From the NCBI GenBank assembly GCA_021372535.1, contig JAJFUH010000069.1:1-41335 (forward strand): a stretch of DNA of 41,335 bases, in the 5' to 3' direction. Origin of the DNA: a bacterium (lineage in GTDB: Bacteria > Latescibacterota > Latescibacteria > Latescibacterales > Latescibacteraceae). Within the stretch, counting starts at the first letter, position 1, and every line of letters begins with the position of its first letter. Made by a program: the position numbers and the translations under genes. Shown here one piece after another: positions 5,045-33,544 of this stretch. Below the pieces are notes generated by a model. That model had not been told where the DNA came from and did no database searches. It saw only the letters and a program-made list of their open reading frames with translations.

Positions 5045-5100
5045 AATTTCAATCCGCGAAAATCCGCCCAATCAGTGTAAATCCGCGTTCCATTCAGTTT
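5045..5100. repeat. 'AATCCGCG' dispersed repeat, copy
   Basis: Reads AATTTCAATCCGCGAAAATC, then CGCC...GTAAATCCGCGTTCCATTCA. It is an inverted relative of units at 1893-1934 and 26484-26527 and a near match to 33675-33714. It lies just before the sialidase-like gene's stop; nothing else is seen between 4965 and 5121. Confidence 0.5.
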
Positions 5101-16322: not shown

Positions 16323-16380
16323 AAAGCGCGCCGGGACGATGATGTTCAGAAATATTTTCTATGTAGTTGTTTTTTATTAA

Positions 16381-16475
16381 CTCACCCCCTCGGTCCCCCT
16401 CTCTTGGAAATAGAGGGGGATGACCACCCGAGTCTCTTCCTCTTCTCTTGGTAAGAGAAGGGGTCAGGGGGTGAG
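16381..16475. repeat. CTCACCCCCT...AGGGGGTGAG dispersed repeat, copy 2
   Basis: The outer inverted ends CTCACCCCCT and AGGGGGTGAG enclose two hairpins, CCCCCTCTCTTGGAAATAGA/GGGGG and CTTCTCTTGGTAAGAGAAG. It is the same family as the copies at 14.3 and 22.5 kb. The 16323-16550 gap holds nothing else that I see apart from the AAGGAGG ribosome site of the next gene. Confidence 0.55.
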
Positions 16476-16550
16476 TTCGGGTGAAGGGATGGGATAAAGC
16501 TGGAATAAATCGATAGGCGTTTTATCTTTTATTTTCAAGGAGGATATACC

Positions 16551-17552
16551 ATGAAGGTCATCAGGCTTATGTTGTTGCTCTCGGTTGCGGTGCTCATGCT
16601 GTGCGCCGTTGTATCGCCGGTTTCCGCGCAGGCACAGGGAAAAGTATTCCGTATCGGCATGATCGGTCTCGACACATCGCATGTCATCGCTTTTGCCAAG
16701 ACCCTCAACGATCCCAAGAATAACTACGGCTGCCGTGTAGTGGCAGGATATCCCGGCGGCTCGCCCGATGTCGAAAGCTCCGCCAGCCGTATCGAGGGAT
16801 TTACCAAACAGCTCCGCGACGAGTCCGGCGTCGAGATCGTGAACTCCATCGAGGAGCTTGTCTCCAAAGTCGACGGCGTCCTTCTTGAGAGTGTGGACGG
16901 CCGTCCCCATCTCGCGCAGATCAAGCCGGTGTTCGCCGCCAAAAAGCCCGTCTTCATCGATAAGCCCATGGCGGGCAGCCTCGCCGATGTCATCGAGATT
17001 TTCCGTCTGGCAAAGGAAAGCGGCGTGCCCTGCTGGTCGAGCTCTTCGCTCCGGTATTCGCCGGGCATCGTACGTATGCGGAACGACGAGACGATCGGGC
17101 AGGTTCTCGGCTGTGACGCCTTCAGCCCGTGCTCGCTCGAGGAGCATCATCCCGACCTCTACTGGTACGGCGTCCACGGTGTCGAGATACTGTTCACCAT
17201 CATGGGAACGGGATGCGAAACGGTCAGCCGTGTCCAGACCAAGGATACCGAATTCGTCGTCGGCACATGGAAGGACGGCCGCATCGGGACATTCAGAGGT
17301 CTCCGGGGCGGGAAAACGGATTACGGCGCTTTCGTATTCGGCTCGAAAGGCATGGGACCGAGCGGGTCATACGGCGGCTACGAACCGCTTGTCGAGGAGA
17401 TAGTGAAGTTCTTCAAAACGGGAGTGATCCCCGTTCAGCCGGAAGAAACCATCGAGATTTTCGCGTTCATGAGCGCTGCCGATGAATCGAAAGCCCGCGG
17501 CGGCGCCCCGGTGTCGCTTCAGTCGGTGATCGATAAGGCGAAGAAGCGGTAA
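16551..17552 (+). CDS. exported Gfo/Idh/MocA-like protein, altered Rossmann loop
   Basis: 333 residues. A clear Sec signal (MKVIRLMLLLSVAVLMLCAVVSPVSAQAQG) is followed by a Gfo/Idh/MocA-type body: KVFRIGMIGLDTSHVIAFAKTLND, DGVLLESVDGRPH, FIDKPMAGSL (the EKP-type motif), then WYGVHGVEILFTIMG and a C-terminal beta domain. The usual GxGxxG nucleotide loop is replaced by GLDTSH, so tight NAD(P) binding by the classic mode is doubtful. Export would also separate it from cytoplasmic NAD(P), unless it carries bound cofactor through Tat, which the signal does not suggest. A possible role is binding or isomerising a sugar in the periplasm. ATG follows AAGGAGG. It appears monocistronic. Confidence 0.8.
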   Translation: MKVIRLMLLLSVAVLMLCAVVSPVSAQAQGKVFRIGMIGLDTSHVIAFAKTLNDPKNNYGCRVVAGYPGGSPDVESSASRIEGFTKQLRDESGVEIVNSIEELVSKVDGVLLESVDGRPHLAQIKPVFAAKKPVFIDKPMAGSLADVIEIFRLAKESGVPCWSSSSLRYSPGIVRMRNDETIGQVLGCDAFSPCSLEEHHPDLYWYGVHGVEILFTIMGTGCETVSRVQTKDTEFVVGTWKDGRIGTFRGLRGGKTDYGAFVFGSKGMGPSGSYGGYEPLVEEIVKFFKTGVIPVQPEETIEIFAFMSAADESKARGGAPVSLQSVIDKAKKR

Positions 17553-17553
17553 A

Positions 17554-18516
17554 CGTCTCCATGACAATGTAAGAATCATTCCATTCATATCCGAATATTC
17601 GGGAAATACTATTGGCAATACCGCACTCTTTCCGGTTGATGATTTTAATGTATATGCGGTCACATCGGATGGTGACAGCACTTATCTCGCCGTATACAGG
17701 ACAGATGAAGGTGCATCGGGAAAGACGAAAGTATATAAATTCCCGGAAAAAAACGGACCTGTACTATCATGGATTCATGGTTCTGGTTCTAACGGCTTCA
17801 AACCGACCGGCGACATGTGTGTAACAGGATCATTTGTTATCGTTTGTAACAGCAATGGAACGAACAATGAGGTGTATAGATATCCAAAGAAAGGGGAAGG
17901 TGCTACTGCGGTCTTAAACTCTATTGAGCTGACCTCAAAGAAAGTTACGGCCCTTTCCTCTTATTCAGCCGCATATTCCGATTCGTTTTACATTTCAGCC
18001 ATCAAAATAAATAGAGGAAGTGTAAAACTCTATAAAGGAATATCTACACAAGTAGAATATAGTGAACTGAAAAACTGTGACGCAGTACAGGCAAGCGAAG
18101 TTACCGCGTTGGCATGCGATGGCACCAATATTATATTTGCTGCGAAAGTAGGTAGCAACACGAAACTGTACAGTTTCACTGAGGCTGATACTTCTCTTGT
18201 CCTTCGTCAGACATGGAACAGTGCAGAAGCAACAGCAATGACGTTTTTCTATACTACACTCATGACAGCGGTAAAATCTACAAGTACCGGAAATACAACC
18301 ATCTACCGGGGTCCGTATACCGATCCCGATTCCGGAAGTGAGAGTCTCGGAGCTACTGAAATACTGTCGCTTGCCGGATATAGAGGCACAGGCGACTTCT
18401 GTTATTCAATAAAAAATGTATCGTCAGATGGTGACAAACAAATGTATTTTACCGATACGAGCAGTAACCTTTTAAAGGATACGCTTTATTATTCACGTTG
18501 GTGGAGAGAGTATTAA
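17554..18516 (+). pseudogene. propeller-like ORF lacking a start, probable 5'-truncated gene
   Basis: A reading frame without stops runs from just inside the 3' end of the Gfo/Idh/MocA-like gene (after a TGA at 17527) to TAA at 18514. Sensible protein-like sequence begins right after the upstream stop (VRIIPFISEYSGNTIGNTA, then VYAVTSDGDSTYLAVYRTDE), but there is no in-frame ATG, GTG or TTG before ATG 17815, and no signal peptide. Downstream it shows repeated beta-strand pairs (VYRYPKKGEG, SVKLYKGIS, KLYSFTEAD, TIYRGPYTD), suggesting a propeller-like fold. The family is not recognised. The DNA turns abruptly AT-rich at about 17555. Most likely it is the remnant of a larger secreted protein that lost its 5' end, or the distal part of a frameshifted gene. 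A shorter product from 17815 (233 residues) cannot be excluded. Confidence 0.5.
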
Positions 18517-18526
18517 GATGAGTAAT

Positions 18527-18552
18527 AGAGGGGTGGAAATATCCACCCCTCT
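18527..18552. terminator. strong hairpin after the truncated propeller ORF
   Basis: Perfect 10-bp stem AGAGGGGTGG / CCACCCCTCT with loop AAATAT, starting 10 bp after the TAA at 18516. No T-run follows on the plus strand, so termination could be weak or rho-assisted. Confidence 0.5.
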
Positions 18553-18624
18553 CGATTATAGTCTTCATATGAATTTTTTGGTGTGATTGCAGAGAAAGTA
18601 TTACAATATCTCAAATGGTGAAAA

Positions 18625-20763
18625 ATGAAAACACAATTCAAAATATATTCATTAGTGTTGTTTTTACTTATTATAAACGCAGCCAATTGTTTTTCAGGAG
18701 ATTGGGTAACATATAAAACGTTTATCGACACCGTTACTGCAATAGAGCAAAAAAATGATACATTCTGGCTTGGTTCAAAACACGGTCTTGCTGCGTATGA
18801 TCAAAAAACAGGCATTACCGTTGGATATCCATGGGAAAACAACATTCAAAACAACTGTGTGAACGGCATAGCAATTGACAGAAACGGAGTTACATGGGCA
18901 GCGACCGATAAGGGAATATTTTATCGGAGTGGCGCATATATGGTTTCAGCAGGCGAAAAGGAATTTGGAAAAATACTTGCCGTGGATGTCGAAAAGAATA
19001 ATAACATATGGTTCATTTCATCGAATAATGTAATTTTTTATGACAGGGATTCATGGCATGTTTTTACAGCAAGCATCGATTTTCCCGTCGGATCGCTTAT
19101 CACACTTGTGATAGATGATACCGATACAATCTGGATAGGTACGAAAAAGAATGGAATTATGAGTTATAACGGTTCCTCATGGACAATCTATGATATGTAT
19201 AAACCCGATATCGTGTGCAGCACAGTAGATATAAAAAACCGTGTCTGGTTTGGCGATTACCATGGTATGGCATATTCATATGATGGGAACAATTGGAATA
19301 GCATACAGGTAGTAAGTCCTCTATGGTATATGTATTCGCTCGATGTCGATAAAAATGACATTATCTGGGCAGGCTCTAATAAGGGACTCTATCGTTCTGA
19401 AAATGGTGCAAATACTGTTTACACGGAAGATAACGGTCTCGAAATCACACGATGTAACATCGTAAAAATAGATGAAATCGATAACGAATCTGTATGTATT
19501 GTTGGGATCAGAGGATTAACGAAGTATAACGGAATCGATTTTTCAACAGTTTTTCCGAATGTTGGTCCTTTGGAAAATAATGTGTATTCAATCGCGATCG
19601 ATCACAATAATGTCAAATGGTTCGGACATAATACGGACAATATTACGTGTTTTGAAGACGTTTCTTGGTCAGGATTTAAGCACCATACAATCAGCATGAT
19701 CGGAGAACATATTGCTGTCGATTCACACAATACCAAATGGCTTTCTGCAGAGACCGGTGTTGTCCTTTCTTTCAATGATAGTACGTTTACAGAATATAAT
19801 ATATCTGCTTATGATGAGGCTGGCCAGAGAATGAATCCCAAATATCCATTGTATGTAAGTTCCATCGTAACAGATAATGACAGTAATGTATGGATGTTTG
19901 CAGATGGTACGAATGATTATGAATATAAAGCAAATATTTTTGGTTACAATGGAGAAAACATATATGTTTGTTCGCCTTATCTCTACCTAGTACCTGTTTT
20001 CAATTTGGCCATAGATTCAAAGAATCAATTATGGAAATCATTGCACAATACCAGCCCACCATATGGATACTATATCACATGTCCCTCAACAATAATACAA
20101 AGTCCTTTTAATGAACGTTCCATTCTATCTTTTGATCATTATGATAGTATATGGATATATTCTATTTATGGTATAGCTGAATTCGACAGTGTATTTTGGA
20201 TTGTTTATAATGAAGATAATTCAGGTCTCACAAGTAATGTTGTATATTCCATGGCATTTGATCAAAACAACACCAAATGGATCGGCACCGATGCCGGTGT
20301 CTGCCGCTTCGACGGCGAAACCTGGACAACGTTCAACACTCAGAACAGCGGCCTCTGCGATAATAAAGTCAACGCCATCGCGGTCGAAAAGAATAACACC
20401 ATCTGGTTCGGTACCGACAACGGAGTCTCCCAATACACCGGGGAAGTAATCATCACTTCAGTGGACGAAAACAAAACAACGCCCGTATCTCTCCCTATCA
20501 TCCGCTCCTACCCAAACCCCTTCAACCCCTCGACGACCATCGAATTCTTTCTTCCTGATACCGGGTTCACAACGCTCATCATCTACAATATTGCCGGACA
20601 GAAAGTCCGTGTAATTGCTACGGAACGCATGACCAGCGGAATTCACCGTCTCCATTGGGACGGCAAGGACGACTCCGGCAGCTCTGTCTCGGCGGGTATC
20701 TACTTCGCCCGGCTGACATGTGGCGGGCAGGTGGCTACGGGGAAAATGGTGATGGTGAAGTGA
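18625..20763 (+). CDS. Reg_prop beta-propeller with type-IX-like sorting domain
   Basis: 712 residues. A Sec signal (MKTQFKIYSLVLFLLIINAANCFSG) is followed by a long array of two-component-regulator-propeller (Reg_prop) type units, for example FWLGSKHGLAAYDQKTG, TWAATDKGIFYRSG, IWIGTKKNGIMSYNGSSWTIY, IWAGSNKGLYRS, KWIGTDAGVCRFDGETWTTF and IWFGTDNGVSQYTGE. This suggests two seven-bladed propellers. The C-terminus (about 630-712) has RSYPNPFNPSTTIEFFLPD, then YNIAGQKVRVI and AGIYFARL, ending KMVMVK. This is the FlgD-Ig-like/T9SS type A domain used for outer-membrane secretion and surface attachment. No kinase or DNA-binding domain is present, so it is a free-standing surface propeller. The gene is AT-rich up to about 20275, then switches to GC-rich codons for the last blades and sorting domain. 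Ribosome site weak (GGTGAAAA). Confidence 0.85.
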   Translation: MKTQFKIYSLVLFLLIINAANCFSGDWVTYKTFIDTVTAIEQKNDTFWLGSKHGLAAYDQKTGITVGYPWENNIQNNCVNGIAIDRNGVTWAATDKGIFYRSGAYMVSAGEKEFGKILAVDVEKNNNIWFISSNNVIFYDRDSWHVFTASIDFPVGSLITLVIDDTDTIWIGTKKNGIMSYNGSSWTIYDMYKPDIVCSTVDIKNRVWFGDYHGMAYSYDGNNWNSIQVVSPLWYMYSLDVDKNDIIWAGSNKGLYRSENGANTVYTEDNGLEITRCNIVKIDEIDNESVCIVGIRGLTKYNGIDFSTVFPNVGPLENNVYSIAIDHNNVKWFGHNTDNITCFEDVSWSGFKHHTISMIGEHIAVDSHNTKWLSAETGVVLSFNDSTFTEYNISAYDEAGQRMNPKYPLYVSSIVTDNDSNVWMFADGTNDYEYKANIFGYNGENIYVCSPYLYLVPVFNLAIDSKNQLWKSLHNTSPPYGYYITCPSTIIQSPFNERSILSFDHYDSIWIYSIYGIAEFDSVFWIVYNEDNSGLTSNVVYSMAFDQNNTKWIGTDAGVCRFDGETWTTFNTQNSGLCDNKVNAIAVEKNNTIWFGTDNGVSQYTGEVIITSVDENKTTPVSLPIIRSYPNPFNPSTTIEFFLPDTGFTTLIIYNIAGQKVRVIATERMTSGIHRLHWDGKDDSGSSVSAGIYFARLTCGGQVATGKMVMVK

Positions 20764-20799
20764 AACCGGGACTTTTGAAATCACCGAAAATCCCGGTTT
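20763..20799. terminator. hairpin between convergent genes, probable terminator
   Basis: AAACCGGGA (20763-20771) pairs with TCCCGGTTT (20791-20799), overlapping the stop of the large propeller gene and facing the RidA-like gene's end. Symmetric A/T tails suit a bidirectional terminator. Confidence 0.55.
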
Positions 20800-20820
20800 C
20801 TAGTGCGGCTTTTTGAAAAT

Positions 20821-26082: not shown

Positions 26083-26172
26083 GACAATCGCTCCGTGATG
26101 GTCATACCAATGCACGTAAATAATGGCCTGAAACGCCGGTTGTCAATGTTGAAGATTCACCCTGATACTTTC

Positions 26173-26345
26173 CTTTGCTTGCCCAAAGGAAAGTTTCCAA
26201 AGGAAAGGGCACCCGTGAAAAGCCTTTTTCCCCATTCACCGCCCGTTTTTCGGGAATGGGTGAACTCACGAGCCTTCGGCTCGCTCGGACAGCACCCATT
26301 CTTTTTCCGAAAACCGGTTGTGAACAGGGGGCTTTTCAACGGATT
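26173..26345. repeat. decayed intergenic repeat block with several hairpins
   Basis: Runs from TTTGCTTGCCCAAAGGAAAG through GGAAAGGGCACCC. It holds a CCCG-ttttt-CGGG hairpin flanked by CCCATT/AATGGG, and a second hairpin CGAGCC-ttc-GGCTCG. The 'TTGCTTGCCCAAAG...GGGCACCC' string is a widespread intergenic motif in environmental genomes (from memory, unverified). Short frames on both strands here have no ribosome sites. The wider 26083-26708 gap otherwise shows no gene. Confidence 0.4.
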
Positions 26346-32161: not shown

Positions 32162-32620
32162 CGGCGCACCTCCGGTCTGAAAAATGTGAAACAGTGCTGC
32201 AAGCCTGTCGATATAATCGGAATACGTTATTATGTCACTTACACCGGAGGAATGCAAGCGTTTATGGTATTTTCGGTTCCCATTTCCGGAATTCAGCGTC
32301 AGGGTGATGTATTTCTGAGCGTGTCCGGCAGTTTCGGCTCTCTTTTCGTTCATCGTACTGTCCGTCAGTGTACATGAACTGTTCGCTGCCGGACGGAACC
32401 GTCGATGCTTTTCTCTTCCGTACATCCGTGATTCATCGGGACCTGTCGAATCATACCGCTCTGGCATCGGGAATCCGCCGGGTGGTGCTGTTTTGGAGTG
32501 GTCTGCCGTTTTTTGGCACGGATTTACCAGTTTCATGGAGTACGTACCGGCCGGTTATTGTCATGATATTCACTGTTTTTTCTATGTGATTACCGGATGG
32601 ATAGAACCGGGGGAACTGCC
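32162..32620. other. intergenic region between divergent ceramidase-like and sorting-domain genes
   Basis: About 460 bp separates the two divergent starts. A frame continues upstream of the ceramidase ATG without a stop for 125 codons, but it has no ribosome site at its beginning and no recognisable domain. I see no confident promoter or RNA element. Confidence 0.4.
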
Positions 32621-33544
32621 ATGAAGGTGAAGATCGTACTATTGTGTCTGTCGTTTCTTATGCTTTTTTTGCCGCGTGTGTCCGCGGACAATCCGTGTGA
32701 CAGATTCAATGATTTCTGCTTCGACACATGGCCCGATCCGAGTCCGGCAAAAGGGAGTATAATGTTTGAAATCGGGACGTTTCTGGATTACAGTATACTG
32801 ATGGACAAACGCAACCCGAAATCGTTCAATGTGGATTTCCGTTTTTACGATCCTTCCACGGGAGTGAAAAACGACGGGCGACTCCGTATCAGTTACTATC
32901 AGACGGGAGAGGAGGCGCAGAATGCGTTATACGGCCTGTTGATGTCCTGTGAATCACCGTTTCTCCCTCCTCTCCGTCACAAGCCCGATTTTGCGCCGGG
33001 AGATGTCGCATTCGCGGGATTTTCCAATGCTCCCGGTCACTTATACGGTGTTTATTATTGTATCGGCAATGTGGTTGTCCGGGGAGTCGGTGAAGAAGCA
33101 GACATCAAGGCGCTTGCCCTCACTGTCGAAGCGATCGTGAAAAACACCCCTCCGGCGGCACCGGACAATCCTCCCGGATTCATCATATCGGATGAATTCA
33201 TACGGGCGTTCAAATACCCTCGGCTCTCCGCGTCAGCCGTTGAAGACACACCTGCGGAGACTCCGCGGGTCTTCACTCTCTGCCAGAACGTCCCGAATCC
33301 GTTCAATCCCTCGACGGTTATCGGGTACGAACTGTATGAATCCGCCAACGTTCGCCTGGCTGTGCACGATACCGCAGGACGTGTGGTGCGGGTGCTCGAA
33401 AATTGCATGCGGGACGCGGGACACCACGAGGTCGTCTGGGATGGCAGGGACAATAGTGACCGGTGCGCCGCCTCGGGAGTCTACATCTGCCGCATCGGGG
33501 CGGGAGGGACATATAAAGCGCGGAAGATGACTCTCGTACGGTGA
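32621..33544 (+). CDS. secreted protein with PNPFNPST type-IX-like sorting domain
   Basis: 307 residues. A Sec signal (MKVKIVLLCLSFLMLFLPRVSAD) precedes a unique domain (about 25-210) with FNDFCFDTWPDPSPAKGSIM, FNVDFRFYDPSTGVKN and an IDxxIK-like helix (EADIKALALTVEAIVKNTPP). The C-terminus (about 222-307) is the FlgD-Ig-like/T9SS sorting domain: CQNVPNPFNPSTVIGYELYE, then VHDTAGRVVRVLE, HEVVWDGRDN, SGVYICRIG, ending KARKMTLVR. It should cross the outer membrane and stay on the surface. The N-terminal domain is not recognised. ATG 32621 is nine bases after GGGGG; an alternative ATG at 32597 adds eight residues before the signal. It appears monocistronic. Confidence 0.8.
   Translation: MKVKIVLLCLSFLMLFLPRVSADNPCDRFNDFCFDTWPDPSPAKGSIMFEIGTFLDYSILMDKRNPKSFNVDFRFYDPSTGVKNDGRLRISYYQTGEEAQNALYGLLMSCESPFLPPLRHKPDFAPGDVAFAGFSNAPGHLYGVYYCIGNVVVRGVGEEADIKALALTVEAIVKNTPPAAPDNPPGFIISDEFIRAFKYPRLSASAVEDTPAETPRVFTLCQNVPNPFNPSTVIGYELYESANVRLAVHDTAGRVVRVLENCMRDAGHHEVVWDGRDNSDRCAASGVYICRIGAGGTYKARKMTLVR

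Follow-up and report, generated by a model that had tools for sequence, protein, structure and literature searches.

A composition step shared across a family of propeller genes points to concerted evolution of type IX sorting domains in a Latescibacteraceae genome

Related systems and the locus studied

In Helicobacter pylori, the 3' segments of the paralogs babA/babB and homA/homB resemble each other more closely inside one strain than across strains, and other segments track orthology. In the part of PMC3960876 that treats these genes, citing Pride and Blaser (2002), the pattern is attributed to intragenomic gene conversion. The gingipain and haemagglutinin genes of Porphyromonas gingivalis undergo domain rearrangement, with adhesin modules and alleles being reshuffled among strains, as set out in the relevant part of PMC5266723. 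Related systems by fold are PorZ (PDB 5m11) and the propeller sensor BT4663 (4a2l), on the account given in a section of PMC8545088.

The gene studied here (18625-20763) lies in a window of 41,335 nt, which is contig C69 of genome A (G000; 5.35 Mb in 236 contigs). It is comparable to the babA/babB case, as presented in that part of the source, in that 3' segments of surface-protein paralogs appear homogenised within a genome. In H. pylori, however, the process concerns two to three outer-membrane adhesin paralogs of one species, whereas about ten dispersed genes per genome, unrelated cargo included, are concerned here; the homogenised part is moreover a secretion sorting domain, with the tract marked by a composition step. 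As in P. gingivalis, the proteins are type IX cargo that keeps a conserved sorting domain at the C-terminus and has probably diversified through recombination, but genome-specific homogenisation of that domain is not found described in the portion of PMC5266723 concerned with these genes. Unlike PorZ and BT4663, the genes studied here carry no kinase domain and form a variable multigene family rather than a single machinery component. As far as the literature searched shows, a type IX sorting domain as the homogenised part, the involvement of many cargo genes unrelated to one another and the footprint left in composition are new; the search returned no paper joining sorting domain and concerted evolution, nor type IX secretion and Latescibacter.

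Comparisons were made mainly with genome B (G001), which belongs to the same genus and was assembled separately, and a third genome (G002) was compared in the sorting-domain tree. All are, as far as visible, fragmented metagenome assemblies, and several genome B contigs stop within the end cassettes, hiding some ends. A protein search with the 18625-20763 product returned 229 matches in genome A, mostly to its sorting domain. Loci were picked by similarity to this protein, so gene-wide statistics are biased towards its relatives and frequencies are not genome-wide.

The predicted protein and its composition step

The coordinates of the gene, its parts and its neighbours are given in Table 1. 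The gene is predicted to encode a type IX secretion cargo with two propellers, 14 blades in all. It scores 39.2 bits against the NCBIfam sorting-domain model TIGR04183 (cut-off 23), which places it among type IX cargo, and 24.8 against Pfam PF18962, slightly below the cut-off of 27. The start of the protein is hydrophobic (MKTQFKIYSLVLFLLIINAANCFSG). In an AF2 model (six aligned sequences as input; mean pLDDT 72, pTM 0.59), a helix spans residues 2-21, the strands can be counted as 14 blades with blade 13 beginning at residue 540, residues 607-634 form a poorly ordered linker, and the end domain is all-beta. Genome A encodes SprA (628 bits, cut-off 200) and PorV (256 bits, cut-off 90), so it probably has a type IX system.

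Table 1. Features at and around the composition step, in window coordinates
Feature	Position	Strand	Basis
GC-rich oxidoreductase gene (GFO_IDH_MocA), ordinary local neighbour at the 5' edge of the AT-rich patch	16551..17552	+	Pfam PF01408; GC3; synteny
3' half (~317 aa) of the AT-rich partner gene, 5'-truncated, beta-helix half missing (predicted)	17563..18516	+	full-length homologs; Pfam Beta_helix
Predicted surface protein of 712 aa, gene intact: two propellers (14 blades) and, at the C-terminus, a type IX sorting domain	18625..20763	+	Pfam Reg_prop, FlgD_ig; TIGR04183; AF2 model
AT-rich body (GC3 0.32) with a signal-peptide-like start, propeller 1 and the greater part of propeller 2	18625..20268	+	changepoint; blade count from model
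Conserved block of blades 13-14, residues 546-611; GC-rich step at its start	20260..20457	+	family identities; changepoint
Linker and Ig-like sorting domain, residues 612-712; in the 10-copy clade specific to genome A	20458..20760	+	identities, dS, codon comparison, trees
Terminator-like hairpin past the stop codon; 14-nt arms, 93% complementary	20762..20800	+	inverted repeat I21

The solved structures nearest to the model are propeller sensors such as BT4663, together with PorZ. Assignment as a PorZ equivalog was rejected: the NF052228 score is 80.4 bits against a cut-off of 260, and the protein is PorZ-like by fold only. A hybrid two-component regulator with a propeller sensor was likewise rejected, with no histidine kinase or Y_Y_Y domain after the propellers; the domains over or near cut-off are Reg_prop, FlgD_ig and sorting domains only. 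The gene is an ordinary surface-protein gene, and it is the dynamics of its family that are unusual.

A reading of the sequence alone had proposed a drop in GC content directly after 17552 and a return in mid-gene near 20275, at the edge of a repeat unit. Both shifts and the placement were recovered. Windowed GC falls from 0.59 (17001-17500) to 0.33-0.45 (17501-20250) and reaches 0.53 by 20251-20750. The gene at 16551-17552 has a GC3 of about 0.73 (0.65-0.82 by window), and the ORF at 17530-18516 has 0.25-0.45 by window, about 0.37 over 17553-18516. Within the 18625-20763 gene, windows range from 0.12 to 0.45 in codons 1-540 and from 0.55 to 0.75 in codons 541-712, so codon usage is not uniform. 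The maximum-likelihood GC3 changepoint is at codon 547 (~20269), within two codons of the proposed position, with GC3 rising from 0.32 to 0.70 (2dlnL 74; none of 300 permutations as strong) near the predicted start of blade 13. A general 3' rise in GC3 was ruled out. Among 91 ordinary genes of genome A, the last 90 codons differ from the body by -0.009 on average and by +0.21 at most; the sorting domain of the 18625-20763 gene differs from its body by +0.32 (0.68 vs 0.36), exceeding every control.

The switch from AT-rich to GC-rich within this gene is real, yet it is a feature of the whole family. In genome A, an AT-rich body is joined to a GC-rich end in at least six further genes, as it is in most members in genome B, and the step is significant by the changepoint test in 7 of 7 family genes tested in genome A and in five in genome B. 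Most changepoints correspond to residues 517-551 of the 18625-20763 protein; the outliers are C229 (581), C165b (622) and B_C101 (440). At the DNA level, the genome A members are 74-82% similar over their last ~500 bases and show hardly any similarity elsewhere. The sequence-only reading had taken the gene for a local chimera, in which a resident propeller gene had its exposed part swapped in one recent recombination. A sharp step at a blade boundary is what such a swap would leave, but in both genomes many genes have the step at about that position, relatives with the same full-length architecture and composition exist, and the body is saturated at synonymous sites against every sibling compared; a one-off swap is very improbable. 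An assembly artefact at one or both boundaries is less probable still. The assembly is fragmented and several G001 contigs end within cassettes, but the steps recur at the homologous position in separate assemblies, mostly inside intact reading frames. Misassembly fails as an account of the 20269 step, though not of the 17553 junction, because that step recurs in many genes of two separate assemblies.

A related sorting gene, C47, has a similar contrast between body and sorting domain. Two genome B loci carry altered cassettes. An orphan cassette on contig C416 (L094, 4994-5479), a 161-codon frame beginning near the conserved blade block and ending in a B-type sorting domain, is without an upstream propeller body and may be a remnant or a donor. 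A family member on contig C251 (L095) has a frame shift in its end cassette and is apparently a pseudogene.

Separate histories of body, blade block and sorting domain

The bodies are 22-47% identical within genome A, and members from the two genomes are interleaved in the body tree. A_C59a pairs with B_C101 (100/99), A_C206a with B_C164 (95/94), and B_C388 falls among A_C69, A_C206b and A_C229 (88/89); in the two clearest cross-species body pairs with a cassette (C59a/B_C101 and C206b/B_C388), the genome B sorting domain is lost at contig ends. Grouping also crosses species for the third-gene propeller of a related operon.

The sorting domains group differently. Their amino acid identity is 64-88% within genome A, 72-90% within genome B and 50-60% between the two. 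In the sorting-domain tree, 10 genes of genome A (SH-aLRT 99) and 9 of genome B (SH-aLRT 97) form separate clades, which include A_C206a and B_C164, both without the family's last blades. Grouping A_C206a with B_C164 in this tree was rejected by the AU test (p-AU 7e-91), though their bodies are sisters. G002 has its own six-member clade. Homogenisation of all sorting domains across a genome was rejected: only a subset per genome is involved, and the nearest neighbours of the others are often in other genomes. Another FlgD-like sorting-domain gene in the window (32597-33541; GC3 0.55 in the body, 0.71 in the sorting domain) falls outside the homogenised clade.

Synonymous sites show the same division. 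Where two sorting domains have the same residue, they also use the same codon in a fraction of 0.67 of A-A, 0.60 of B-B and 0.44 of A-B comparisons, with non-overlapping bootstrap confidence intervals, against 0.43/0.41 expected from composition alone; for the bodies, the A-A fraction is 0.44 vs 0.42 expected. Sorting-domain dS is 0.27-1.14 within genome A and 1.35-2.15 between genomes, and body dS is mostly ≥1.7 or saturated. The neighbouring genes C206a and C206b have a sorting-domain dS of 0.27 despite unrelated bodies.

The block of blades 13-14 follows a third pattern. It is mostly 65-92% identical among members from both genomes, its synonymous sites are near-saturated, and it is hardly more alike within than between genomes (0.59/0.60 vs 0.56). 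Its conservation is mainly the work of selection. Stronger purifying and codon selection on the end than on the body, with no recombination, was weighed as an account of the whole pattern. That account stands for the block, with its high conservation in both genomes and near-saturated dS, but it is contradicted for the sorting domains, which cluster by genome, share non-coding flanks and have synonymous sites that are unsaturated in comparisons inside a genome but not across genomes; as an explanation of the entire end it is highly unlikely.

The likeness extends past the coding region in several members. C220 and C229, with bodies 26% identical in protein, have a 144-bp non-coding 3' flank in common (85%), and genome B members share a hairpin and adjacent sequence beyond the stop. 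C220 and C59a have 5' flanks that are 90% identical over ~410 bp, and their genes match at either end, around a middle of ~1.3 kb without a DNA-level match. C206b and C229 match in DNA at nt 25-326 and 1669-2154 only. The 18625-20763 gene is homogenised at its 3' end only. The 5' flank of C220 and C59a (L035 2985-3407; G000:C220:14804-15212) is non-coding and contains a promoter-like TTGACA / TACAAT pair.

We consider concerted evolution of the gene ends by intragenomic gene conversion, most pronounced at the sorting domain and with bodies diverging independently, the best explanation, at a probability of roughly 75%; the process is deduced from the phylogenetic pattern. The 18625-20763 gene would be a member of a dispersed, AT-rich, PorZ-like two-propeller family, in which the 3' ends (last two blades and sorting domain) are repeatedly overwritten from siblings in the same genome by homologous recombination. 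The overwriting would sometimes extend into non-coding sequence past the 3' end, and two gene pairs would have undergone it at the 5' end too; the exposed propeller bodies would diverge on their own. The step would be the footprint of this process: an AT-rich composition, also seen in a beta-helix partner gene, persists in the body, and the end has the GC-rich composition of a shared converted pool, possibly raised further by GC-biased conversion. A probable benefit is an export tag matched to the secretion machinery of the genome, with the outer part free to vary. The idea of a recombination mosaic that kept a resident export domain and swapped the exposed part survives in its two histories and needs revising in its direction. 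Judged from the trees and dS, the exposed body, with its cross-species kinship, is the older component and the end, homogenised per genome, the recently exchanged one. Overwriting of the export end was apparently no less extensive than swapping of the exposed part, because the bodies keep cross-species kinship and the ends are homogenised per genome.

The ends had also been described as using GC-rich codons of the local type. They are GC-rich, but the homogenised sorting domains exceed local usage, with a GC3 of 0.737 in genome A vs 0.619 for ordinary genes over their last 90 codons (p=0.00018); in genome B the values are 0.548 vs 0.445 in typical genes (p=0.00025). The more alike sorting domains are inside a genome, the higher their GC3 (rho 0.57 in genome A and 0.44 in genome B), and body GC3 shows no such rise. 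This correlation, to which high GC3 alone contributes by lifting identity slightly, suggests GC-biased conversion. The converted domains, ~0.1 above typical GC3 in two genomes of differing base composition, may allow GC-biased gene conversion to be tested in bacteria in a natural setting. A more far-reaching reading, which we hold tentatively and think somewhat less probable than its negation, makes the sorting domain a genome-wide shared cassette: GC-biased conversion would re-synchronise the tags of unrelated cargo, and the pool would co-evolve with the secretion machinery. Cargo and export signal would then evolve on separate schedules.

Concerted evolution of the ends would give bacteria with very many secreted surface proteins a sequence-testable mechanism for keeping a common export signal as the exposed parts diverge. 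Composition steps inside such genes need not signal recent foreign DNA, and cargo history is not reflected in sorting-domain trees.

The 5' edge and the truncated partner gene

The partner frame upstream of the propeller gene is open from 17530, and its first start codon does not occur before 17815. Full-length homologs of 570-665 aa lie directly upstream of a propeller gene at A:C229, A:C165, B:C101 and B:C22, and three of these four have a Pfam Beta_helix match in the N-terminal half. Elsewhere, all that remains of the partner is its last ~99, 82, 23 or 22 residues, and none is left at C206b; wherever a remnant exists, the 3' end is kept. The edge at 17553, earlier taken for the boundary of a swapped patch, has another cause. 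By comparison with the paralogous loci, the AT-rich patch is a putative truncated pair of AT-rich genes, and 17553 is the junction at which the partner gene was presumably cut off beside the oxidoreductase gene, by deletion or during arrival. The oxidoreductase gene has a syntenic ortholog in G001 (contig C252) with the same upstream neighbours. Comparison at the same site is uninformative for the 17553 junction: contig C252 ends 31 bases past the oxidoreductase stop and G003 carries different genes.

The partner series also bears on the idea that AT-rich bodies were imported together with varying lengths of the partner, anchored on one side in the conserved end of a resident gene and joined illegitimately on the other. 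Partner retention at varying lengths (full, 317 aa here, and the shorter remnants), always with the 3' end, would fit such import, as would a junction lying right against the stop codon of a GC-rich gene and the rarity of a GC3 under 0.40, which just ~5% of ordinary genes in genome A have. The same truncation series, however, results if the partner gene simply decays. The bodies are not recent foreign DNA, because their old cross-species counterparts are equally AT-rich, and ends have moved between loci, because C220, C229 and C59a share 3' non-coding flanks. Import of the bodies is therefore unlikely, though less remote than a one-off swap, and concerted evolution of the ends remains the preferred reading, with 17553 as the probable site of partner truncation.

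No RNA family and no tRNA that might mark an integration site was found in the window. Several dispersed repeats were observed. A palindrome-like repeat at 16371-16493 has many ~80-98% matches across three related genomes, and a second repeat at 26166-26343 has ~70-75% matches at many sites in G001 and G002. The window also contains, at 5052-5094, one copy of a 43-bp repeat of the ATCCGCGTAAATCCGC type, which occurs in ~40 places in genome A and also ends the shared 3' flank of C220, C229 and C59a.
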